Assembly: GCA_944368925.1 (NCBI GenBank) | Contig: CALVXG010000014.1 | Span: forward strand, 1-61,143 | Length of the DNA: 61,143 bases | DNA from: an uncultured Clostridia bacterium | GTDB lineage: Bacteria > Bacillota > Clostridia > Christensenellales > Borkfalkiaceae | Direction: 5' to 3' | Shown: positions 36,568 through 38,239 of the stretch, in pieces | How positions within the stretch are numbered: the stretch's first letter is position 1 | Layout: each line of letters starts with the position of its first letter | Program-made: the position numbers and the translations under genes | Notes under the pieces: generated by a model | What the model saw: the letters and a program-made list of their open reading frames with translations, nothing else | The model's database searches: none | What the model was told of the DNA's origin: nothing

Positions 36568-36587
36568 TACGCCCATACCCATTGCAT

Positions 36588-36621
36588 GAGCAGACCTCCC
36601 GATCGGGAGGTCTGCTCTTTT
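36588..36621 (+). terminator. Terminator of the ger operon
   Basis: A perfect 30-bp palindrome (36588-36617) followed by a T run, 21 nt after the gerC stop codon. The gap to the next promoter (36622-36785) ends in A+T-rich DNA. Confidence 0.88.
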
Positions 36622-36785
36622 CCTTTCCGCGCGTGCGGCCCGCAAGTCAAAAAATAAACAAGAACGTAAATGCGCGCGCGGCGCAAGCAGAACATCTGAC
36701 AATGACGCCGCCCGATAAAATTGTGAAAATTTACCATATGATTATGATAATTTTCAGAAATATTAAAATTTTTTTCAAAACACTC

Positions 36786-36813
36786 TTGACAAAGGGGAAA
36801 GATATGGTATAAT
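36786..36813 (+). promoter_or_regulatory. Strong promoter with UP-like upstream DNA
   Basis: Exact TTGACA (36786-36791), a 16-nt spacer and exact TATAAT (36808-36813). The preceding 60-70 bases are rich in A and T tracts, like an UP element. Nothing downstream looks like a normal gene, so it most likely drives the candidate RNA at 36820-37676. Confidence 0.9.
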
Positions 36814-37109
36814 AAAAGTGACCTAAGGGAAAAAATCCAAAACGATTTTCCCTCGGTACAACTCAAATGGACGGCACGCGGAAGCTGCATCTCTCCCAAT
36901 ACAAAATAATTTGCGTTGGTTTCCACCGGAAAAATGTGCACAGGGAATATCGGCGCAAGGGTGAACAGAAAGGTCAAGGAAATTTCGATCGGGAGCAGCA
37001 AAGCGGAACAAGGCGGAACGCCGCGATCACACACAGGCTTATCGGAAAAGAGGGGCCGGATGCAGAGGGCGAAGCCGAAGTTCATGCCGGAAAGAAGGGA
37101 GGTACTGCA

Positions 37110-37142
37110 ATGTACAAATCAGACCTGAGAAAACTTGCTTGA
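37110..37142 (+). CDS. Possible 10-codon small ORF inside the candidate RNA
   Basis: GGGAGG lies seven bases before an ATG that opens MYKSDLRKLA and stops at TGA. A second such unit follows 14 nt later. It could be a leader peptide or chance; the same bases may instead be part of RNA helices. Confidence 0.3.
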   Translation: MYKSDLRKLA

Positions 37143-37156
37143 CGGAGGGCGGTCCA

Positions 37157-37189
37157 ATGTACGATTTTAGGATGGGAACGGTAAAATAA
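37157..37189 (+). CDS. Second possible 10-codon small ORF
   Basis: GGAGG lies about ten bases before an ATG that opens MYDFRMGTVK and stops at TAA. The context CAATGTAC is shared with the previous small frame. Coding is unproven. Confidence 0.28.
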   Translation: MYDFRMGTVK

Positions 37190-37640
37190 GCCAAGGTTTT
37201 GAAATTTTGCGGGCAGGCGGAACGCGCTGCAGGTGGGATGCGCCCGTACCGATTATGGAAACAGAAAGAAACAGGCGGCTTACAGAGTCCCTTAAAACTG
37301 AATAAATTTGTTGATTCGCCCGCAGTGCTTACGCCCTGCGGGCTGCTTATCCTATCCCCTGTCGGCGGCAGACGGCCGAAGACTTTTGCGGATATTCCGC
37401 AAACCGCCGTATGCCTGCCCGACCCGCCGTGTTTTTGAATGAGAAACAGCGATGATTGCGCTTTCCTTTAAAAGTCCGATTTGCCGCTGTCCGGCTGTTG
37501 CCGGAGACACGGAAGCCGACGGGGAATGCAGTTTGGATGCCTGGCCGCGCACAGCGAAAGGCCGTGCGCTTTTACAGGGCGTCCGATCGGGAATATCGAT
37601 TGCGTCTATACAATTTTCCCCCTTATTTATATTTCAGCGG

Positions 37641-37676
37641 GACGGAGCTTGCTTTCTGCAAGCTCCGTCTTTTTTT
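37641..37676 (+). terminator. Terminator of the candidate noncoding RNA
   Basis: Perfect 12-bp arms (37641-37652 and 37658-37669) followed by seven T. The next 200 bp up to the rpmA terminators are pyrimidine-rich with no gene. Confidence 0.93.
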
Positions 37677-37882
37677 GCCGAATCTAAAAAACTTGCCCTG
37701 CCCCCGCCGCATCTTTTCCCGATACCGCAGACATTTTTATACCCGCCGCCTTTTTTATCTTCTCCTCTCCGTTTTTTTATAATTTTCCCTCTGCCCCTTG
37801 AAGACAGAATTTAAAAAATGCTGCGGGAAATAGCCGCACGCATAAGCGGCCATGTAAAAAATTTAAAGCGGTAAGATTGCCG

Positions 37883-37959
37883 AAGAACAGTTTGCGCGGC
37901 ACAAAATTGTGCCGCGCAAACTGTTCTTTAAAATTAAATCCCCGCAAAATTGCGGGGAT
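37883..37959 (-). terminator. Double terminator of rplU-rpmA
   Basis: The first hairpin after rpmA (37938-37947 with 37950-37959) is followed on the minus strand by a T-rich run. A second hairpin with 22-bp arms (37883-37904 and 37907-37928) lies just beyond. Confidence 0.85.
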
Positions 37960-37963
37960 CTTG

Positions 37964-38239
37964 TTACTGTGCTTTGTAAACGCTGACCTGTTTTCTGTCT
38001 TTGCCCAATCTTTCAAACCGAACGACGCCGTCGATGAGAGCGAACAGCGTATCGTCTTTGCCGATACCGACGTTGTTGCCGGCATGGAATTTCGTGCCGC
38101 GCTGACGAACCAAAATGTTACCGGCAAGCACTTCCTGGCCGTCCGAACGCTTCACGCCGAGGCGTTTTGCTTCGCTGTCGCGGCCGTTGTGCGACGAACC
38201 CGTTCCTTTTTTATGAGCAAATAAATTGATAAGAATCAT
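37964..38239 (-). CDS. rpmA: 50S ribosomal protein L27
   Basis: L27 reaches the peptidyl-transferase centre through its N-terminus. The 91-residue product has the family core [21 protein letters not shown]. As in other Firmicutes it starts with an extension (MILINLF before AHKKG) that Prp protease normally removes. The usual prp gene between rplU and rpmA is absent; the gap is only 56 nt. Confidence 0.96.

Follow-up and report, generated by a model that had tools for sequence, protein, structure and literature searches.

A folded RNA with its own promoter and tandem SD-led micro-ORFs in Candidatus Borkfalkia and related bacteria

RNAIII and SgrS are dual-function RNAs, 6S RNA presents RNA polymerase with the likeness of an open promoter, and the ribosome-associated noncoding RNAs (rancRNAs) described are mostly short fragments. 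The raiA motif family is a further structured RNA to be considered here, and it is presumably contained in Rfam. Peptide-coding sRNAs have been surveyed (PMC5521070). Like RNAIII and SgrS, the RNA described in the following joins a folded structure to a short ORF that is under selection and preceded by an SD of its own. Unlike them, it carries up to five tandem SD-led ORFs (1-21 codons, the upper value being our filter setting), its peptides differ between genera, and its ORF0/ORF2-type modules carry an extra stretch that is complementary to the remaining part of the 16S 3' tail. Its proposed principle, to be abundant and to act as a decoy for a central machine of the cell, would be that of 6S RNA, but here ribosome start sites are offered, and the window has no Rfam match. 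Regulation through ribosome binding, also proposed here, is the theme of the rancRNAs (PMC8938821), whereas our case concerns a gene dedicated to the RNA and equipped with promoter, terminator and start modules. The raiA motif or ModT RNA (PMC11706538) is likewise a conserved structured RNA of Bacillota, yet the window is without a match to Rfam. OLE, ROOL and GOLLD (PMC12286853) are large folded bacterial RNAs in their own promoter-terminator units as well, but the RNA presented here differs from them by the absence of a covariance-model match, by a core of about 525 nt and by a selected micro-ORF inside. The preliminary description had likened its candidate ornate RNA to these; that likeness was not supported, as there is no Rfam match, one micro-ORF is under selection, and it was by the start modules that the RNA could be followed into other genera.

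The search for known families covered the window, by which we mean the whole stretch of 61,143 bases analysed. None of the 4227 Rfam families, including RF00023 (tmRNA) and RF00010 (RNase P RNA), matched at gathering threshold anywhere in it. At E<=10, positions 36580-37980 gave nothing meaningful within the RNA; the best rows were chance matches outside it, on an inverted repeat around 37879-37965. Six homologous loci likewise gave 0 Rfam matches. By these searches the RNA belongs to none of the 4227 families. Searches of the open-licence PMC literature, the thousands of candidates in PMC8040213 aside, found no description of this RNA.

In the case of the promoter, exact TTGACA-N13-TGN-TATAAT occurs a single time in the window and in 0 of 100 dinucleotide shuffles, with A/T-rich DNA on its 5' side from about 36750; the exact TTGACA-16-TATAAT with A/T-rich upstream DNA that had been reported for this locus is confirmed. 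A blastn search of 61 genomes detected homologues in 32 of the 37 genomes of the genus Candidatus Borkfalkia (Christensenellales, Christensenellaceae in the NCBI taxonomy) and in 0 of the 24 genomes from other families of the order, the homologous stretch being 36780-37356 (query positions 4-577). All 30 fetched Borkfalkia homologues have the exact promoter with a freely varying spacer, the copies having been found with a promoter pattern that also permitted near matches. Transcription likely starts near 36820, at the 5'-terminal hairpin. The positions of all features are collected in Table 1.

Table 1. Coordinates of promoter, helices, start modules and 3' elements of the RNA gene in the window.
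Feature	Coordinates	Strand	Remarks
Promoter	36786..36813	+	TTGACA (36786-36791), 16 bp spacer with TGg (extended -10), TATAAT (36808-36813)
5'-terminal hairpin	36820..36859	+	GGGAAAA (36827-36833)/TTTTCCC (36846-36852); flanks GACC and invariant CGGTAC (36854-36859)
Central helix	36911..36958	+	TTGCGTTGG with TCGGCGCAA; helices 3 and 4, 6 of 12 pairs changed on both sides
ORF1 with start module	37097..37142	+	SD GGGAGG (37097-37102), ATG 37110, MYKSDLRKLA*, stop 37140-37142; frame 37110-37142, 10 codons
ORF2 with start module	37144..37189	+	SD GGAGGG (37144-37149), GGTCCAATG (ATG 37157), MYDFRMGTVK*, stop 37187-37189; frame 37157-37189, 10 codons
3'-domain helix	37209..37247	+	GCGGGC/GCCCGT around GCGCTGCAGG; helices 1-3, 5 of 9 pairs changed on both sides
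3' box	37291..37304	+	CTTAAAACTGAATA, usually a little 5' of the terminator
First GC hairpin	37318..37343	+	GCCCGCAG..CTGCGGGC; no U-run in this species
Possible read-through 3' end	37614..37676	+	TTTTCCCCCTTA (37614-37625), then terminator hairpin (37639-37671) and seven T

The terminator hairpin with seven T, noted beforehand, is present at the far end of the unit. However, conservation over the genus fades near 37356 (query position 577), at the first GC hairpin, and the conserved core comprises about 525 nt (36820-37343). Because conservation ends at this hairpin, the RNA would measure about 525 nt, or about 855 nt by read-through, and the length of about 860 nt given in the preliminary description does not describe the conserved part. 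The first GC hairpin is likely the ancestral terminator; TTTT follows within 12 nt on its 3' side in 15 of 30 copies, the window not being among them. A longer transcript ending at 37676 is possible. One genome (G015) alone gave a second blastn piece, at query positions 769-854.

Two observations concern these 3' elements. Firstly, seven of the 30 Borkfalkia copies, including the window, have TTTTCCCCCTTA or a close variant shortly 5' of a second hairpin; it is complementary to the 5' element AAGGGAAAA, and in five of these seven copies the first hairpin is without a T-run. On weak evidence, the pairing of TTTTCCCCCTTA with AAGGGAAAA could close the longer RNA end to end. In the seven loci this closing beats shuffles (0 of 200 as low), but it is hardly better than with partners swapped between loci (-10.5 versus -10.2), so that no covariation can be claimed for it. 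Secondly, the 3' box was recognised in 29 of 30 Borkfalkia units, 28 of 30 units of genus g34 and 24 of 30 units of a mixed-genus list, and AAAACTGAATA or a close variant also stands just 5' of SD-like sites in other families of the order (L095, L097, L098). By comparison with rRNA-spacer sequences, CTTAAAACTGAATA could be a boxA-type antitermination signal; this reading found no support, as YTTGAAAAYTGAATA is present in 9 of 81 relatives, but a 16S or 23S end was seen by motif check in 0 of the 11 loci inspected.

Helix-rich sequence had been described for this stretch. The folding energy alone is a weak argument, being only modestly better than chance (z of -1.97, with 1 of 20 shuffles as good); the structural evidence is the covariation among homologues, and in the aligned sequences the helices clearly covary at both ends of the RNA. 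In the Borkfalkia 5' domain, 10 of 22 pairs changed on both sides and 84.0% of the cells were paired (4 of 7 pairs and 90.5% in the 5'-terminal hairpin, helix 2 of this domain), in the 3' domain 18 of 22 pairs changed on both sides and 91.1% of the cells were paired, and neither score was reached by any of 500 shuffles, the paired-cell shares being inflated because the structures were predicted from the alignments used for counting, and the shuffles ignoring relatedness. The first GC hairpin, helix 5 of the 3' domain, contributes 10 of 10 pairs changed on both sides, and slid controls of this domain drop to 30-47% paired cells. Collecting homologues and testing them for covariation, as the preliminary description had proposed, hence supported its structured RNA.

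In the case of g34, 14 of 38 pairs changed on both sides in an alignment of 19 of the 30 units (the others exceeded 480 nt or had no 3' box that was recognised). One of 500 shuffles attained the covariation score, and further pair types were no more numerous than expected by chance (215 of 500 shuffles). The promoters of these g34 units are no independent evidence, as the units had been gathered by the promoter pattern. Selection on the RNA structure, as looked for in a dual-function RNA, is therefore found in both Borkfalkia and g34.

The preliminary description had further held that no frame looks like a protein. This has to be revised, since 30 of 30 homologues contain a tandem pair of SD-led ORFs, each about ten codons long, ORF2 being recognised in five copies from the printed sequence where the script did not name it. 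The ORF1 peptide begins MYRSDLRKL in 14, MYKSDLRKL in 12 and MFKSDLRKL in 1 of the 30 copies (consensus MY[KR]SDLRKLA); two further copies have one inserted codon with the frame kept, and one has diverged to MCNFYSRKL. Among the 27 uninterrupted rows, 7 of 8 codons differ at their third position, 2 of 8 at the first and 2 of 8 at the second; this tally omits three of 30 rows for ORF1 and three for ORF2. The pN/pS of ORF1 is 0.068 (25 loci, 18 distinct sequences), a value lowered by selecting these 25 of 30 rows by peptide pattern, which L006, L012 and L030 fail, while the ORF finder did not pick up L008 and L019. The control frames give 5.4 and 1.35, on 9 and 15 stop-free rows, respectively. 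Judged from these comparisons, ORF1 is under strong protein-level selection in Borkfalkia. A conserved protein frame with purifying selection, named beforehand as an observation that would speak against a noncoding RNA, is accordingly present in the form of this tiny ORF. Selected ten-codon genes can thus be detected by comparing close relatives, well under the usual limits of annotation.

ORF2 (MYxFxxGTVK in Borkfalkia) has a pN/pS of 0.56 versus 0.95-0.97 in the other frames and is, by this measure, weakly constrained. Its TAC codon is constant in 27 rows, which suggests an RNA-level constraint on AUGUAC. From the ORF1 stop to the ORF2 AUG there are 12-15 nt in 29 of the 30 Borkfalkia copies, so that the ORF2 SD overlaps or directly adjoins the ORF1 stop; in L008 the ORF1 stop is lost and ORF1 reads in frame through ORF2. 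The structured RNA in its own promoter-terminator unit therefore stands as first described, whereas the word noncoding does not, given the selection on ORF1. The RNA is not purely noncoding: it is folded, matches no known RNA family and carries tiny start sites and genes.

To follow the RNA beyond the genus, two sequence-only models were used, R1 (ORF region) and R3 (mixed), the family in our counts being f1 of the genome set. The ORF1 pattern itself gave 27 matches in GTDB genomes. Over 396 genomes of the order, R1 gave 13 matches outside Borkfalkia but within the family (11 in g34 and 2 in g32, 9 of the 13 at E<=0.001). All 13 loci have exact TTGACA-N13-TGN-TATAAT upstream, although the promoter is absent from R1. 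Most of them carry three micro-ORFs, the first of 2-5 codons (MNR, MHR, MH, MKYK; 11 codons in L112), the second of 8-15 codons and the third, for example, MYxxxxGAEK. One weak R1 match in another family (G410, E of 0.009) was without promoter or micro-ORF by pattern check.

With R3 at E<=0.05, matches came from 151 of the 251 genomes of the family and from 13 of its 18 genera; the weak ones among them need not all be real, and most genomes with a match had one. Among 40 fetched weak or medium matches from other genera, a script recognised the exact promoter in 26, a near match in 4 and neither in 10; the 26 exact promoters sit 5' of SD-led starts or the 3' box, and one further exact match was found in the 143,598 strand-bases of the 40 loci. 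Order-wide (396 genomes), three of the out-of-family R3 matches were read, namely L221, L223 and L225, with G555, G540 and G047 outside this set. Units were recognised in L221 (E of 4e-4) and L225 (E of 0.003): both combine a near-consensus promoter (TAAAAT in L221, a 17-bp spacer in L225) with micro-ORFs in SD modules and with a terminator-like hairpin followed by a T-run. The 3' box is present in L221, none was seen in L225, and L223 showed no such unit. The two loci were accepted because of the shared architecture, as the E-values alone are unconvincing for so many genomes. With an exact-consensus promoter, presence in most members of this gut genus, recurrence in the family and beyond, and absence from Rfam, this would be a major RNA of these bacteria that had gone unrecognised.

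Across these loci, 238 modules were counted in 97 units, L146, L153 and L155 (for which the promoter script gave none), L221 and L225 being added by eye. The units hold 1-5 micro-ORFs, of one codon up to the filter limit; five stand in one unit of a g27 locus. In L155, which has four modules, one AUG is directly followed by UAA and another reads AUG-UAC-UAA. The third module of L146 and L153 (both g38) is an SD with GACCAAU and no start codon, AUC replacing AUG, and L157 (g31) is similar. The divide between noncoding RNA and mRNA is broken here, as the conserved parts include start modules with ORFs down to one codon.

A second feature of the modules is the context of the start codon. All 30 Borkfalkia ORF2 copies have CCR directly 5' of the start codon (one of them a GTG), and so do 128 of the 238 modules, compared with 0 of 116 ordinary SD-led starts, the latter taken from Borkfalkia loci. 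We take the free 3' tail of the 16S rRNA to contain the segments UUGGAU and CCUCCUU, the family's own 16S 3' end having not been found in 121 family genomes. An SD followed by UCCRA is complementary to both parts of this assumed tail. For ORF2 of the window, the predicted duplex joins GGAGG/CCUCC with GGUCCAA/UUGGAUC (37144-37158) at -19.0 kcal/mol, again with the assumed tail, so that over this stretch the RNA could bind the 16S 3' tail along its full length.

Permutation of the tail segment was used to judge this pairing. For 123 distinct CCN-AUG modules, UUGGAU gave a mean duplex energy of -15.2, below all 59 permutations (best -14.8), with the modules having been chosen before the test and permutations that keep UUGG or a similarly placed GGA coming close. 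The 98 other, ORF1-type modules showed no extra complementarity to the 16S tail, as 57 of the 59 permutations were as good or better. Shuffling the last 8 nt before the AUG weakens the tail pairing in modules and ordinary starts alike, and the shuffle test is therefore not specific. Part of the motif would be accounted for just as well by an internal hairpin of GGA with UCC. The permutation test is suggestive only.

Taken at the level of sequence, this looks like a new kind of RNA working together with ribosomes. In the reading that we tentatively put first, as possible rather than probable, the RNA captures or senses initiating ribosomes. Strong transcription of the stand-alone gene would yield a folded RNA, about 525 nt or possibly 855 nt in length, with the tandem ribosome start modules and their micro-ORFs as its conserved working parts. 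Each module would present a strong SD, to which the ORF0/ORF2 type would add UCCRA before the AUG for pairing with the rest of the 16S tail, and each would capture a 30S subunit, with start and stop following within a few codons. By way of the SD at its stop, ORF1 may pass ribosomes on to ORF2, and its nascent peptide could provide a sequence-specific control in Borkfalkia. The RNA would then act as a ribosome decoy or as a sensor of initiation capacity, a ribosome counterpart of 6S RNA.

The decoy or sensor role is ranked first because the modules and their spacing persist, ribosome engagement being the simplest function common to them. From genus to genus the ORFs change in number, length and peptide, but the modules are kept, and on this argument ribosome engagement would outweigh any single product. 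The main fact against a pure decoy is the amino-acid selection on ORF1, which keeps both a micropeptide gene and a nascent-peptide switch alive. If ribosome binding through the 16S tail is true, control of ribosome availability by an RNA becomes directly testable; structured RNAs with a short ORF are already known, and ribosome capture by this route would be categorically new.

The main rival, somewhat doubtful in our judgement, is a micropeptide gene, i.e. a stable bicistronic mRNA from which MY[KR]SDLRKLA and MYxFxxGTVK are released as free peptides, with the structure serving stability and translational control. It is favoured by the pN/pS of ORF1 relative to the other frames, the 27 of 30 ORF1 peptides that are alike save for K/R and Y/F, the frame kept in both inserted-codon copies, and the lowered value for ORF2 in Borkfalkia. 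However, the ORF1 peptides differ in other genera (MKKILRGRKIS, MRVFQHFIKK and MKLRVLEL in g34, MIYFARTVETKGR in g32). ORF2 there is not distinguishable from control frames, with 0.72 versus 0.72 and 0.83 in g34, and 0.65 versus 0.75 and 0.36 in g32. Some ORFs have 1-3 codons, and helices outside the ORFs covary.

Returning to ribosome capture, a wider form of it, rather unlikely as we see it, would make this a new class of ribosome-capturing RNA in the family and other Christensenellales families. Such RNAs would be abundant and folded, with tandem starts, some matching the entire free 16S 3' tail, and ORFs of 1-21 codons (within the filter), holding or counting initiating ribosomes as 6S RNA holds RNA polymerase; the neighbourhood of spore-germination genes in several genera would then point to ribosome dormancy or reawakening.

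A cis-acting nascent-peptide switch is an unlikely explanation. Here a signal (amino acid, antibiotic or initiation state) would pause the ribosome on ORF1 and refold the RNA, so that the 3' box with the terminator, or else a segment acting in trans, becomes exposed or hidden. Such a switch would fit a short ORF1 under amino-acid selection with the second SD at its stop. In addition, the invariant CGGUAC could pair with GUACUG beside SD1, and in g34 a hairpin CATATCG/CGATATG (helix 3; 93.8% of cells paired in the structure predicted from that alignment) places SD1 in the loop and the AUG in the stem. However, the CGGUAC pairing is invariant and thus uninformative on covariation either way, the g34 hairpin is nearly so, a conserved downstream gene as output is missing, and the 3' box is also present where ORF1 is unrelated.

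Less likely still, the RNA could be a structured scaffold of the OLE, ROOL or GOLLD type with incidental ORFs. The isolated promoter-terminator unit, the covariation at both ends and the single match in most genomes with a match would agree with a scaffold; the empty Rfam search, the purifying selection on ORF1 and the tracing across genera by micro-ORF modules would not.

We regard as very unlikely, and have rejected, a leader or attenuator of a neighbouring gene, be it the upstream germination operon or a downstream gene. In the window, Pfam names a Spore_GerAC protein upstream and ribosomal protein L27 downstream on the other strand. Upstream of the RNA and on its strand, a GerAC-like ORF was found in 23 of 30 Borkfalkia, 14 of 30 g34, 4 of 4 g29 and 1 of 7 g27 loci; Pfam gave the family name for the window, for L104 and for L147, and short flanks in many loci limit the counts. 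This association is what a leader would lean on; against it, GerAC-like ORFs were found in 0 of 20 g32 loci, and other neighbours occur, namely MreB (L148), RpoC (L221) and a Na+/H+ exchanger (L116). Moreover, the RNA has its own perfect promoter, begins after the gerAC stop (29-391 nt separate the end of the GerAC-like ORF from the -35 box) and closes with a terminator. Downstream, no cluster of mechanically called ORFs is common to most of the 28 loci compared, and the ORFs are often on the other strand. As a conserved downstream gene is absent and the neighbours vary, the RNA is to be seen as a gene of its own, and its place behind the germination operon as old but not obligatory. Between gerAC and the RNA promoter, directly 3' of gerAC, there is a 13-bp terminator-like hairpin (36588-36617). 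On the other side, the stretch that separates the RNA gene from the convergent gene for L27 contains a long inverted repeat GAAGAACAGTTTGCGCGGCACAA..TTGTGCCGCGCAAACTGTTCTT (37879-37932), with a hairpin ATCCCCGCAAAATTGCGGGGAT (37938-37959) 3' of it, a region that draws spurious Rfam rows.

A divergent housekeeping RNA (RNase P, tmRNA, 6S or SRP) is hardly credible: a folded RNA from a strong promoter with a single locus in most genomes with a match would suit it, but the genome's own RNase P RNA (contig C5, 272 bits) and tmRNA (contig C20, 159 bits) are located elsewhere, by which both identities are rejected, and the window is without an Rfam match. The tag of the genome's tmRNA (L032) is ADNANYNANAQFAYAA, ending AYAA. 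An RNA titrating CsrA in the manner of CsrB/RsmZ, suggested by GGA motifs that are frequent by eye, can be practically dismissed, since no CsrA (PF02599) was found in 37 of 37 Borkfalkia genomes, with positive PF02599 controls in E. coli, B. subtilis and Thermotoga, which refutes it there unless a CsrA analogue exists.

A phage origin was rejected as well, the ORF1 pattern having 0 matches in viral contigs. The promoter-plus-leader pattern matched two viral contigs, where the 640 bases read show this promoter type before SD-led protein frames and not this RNA. These IMG/VR contigs (L229, L230) carry two or three exact TTGACA-N13-TGN-TATAAT within the 640 bases, as if phages of these bacteria used the strong host-type promoter.
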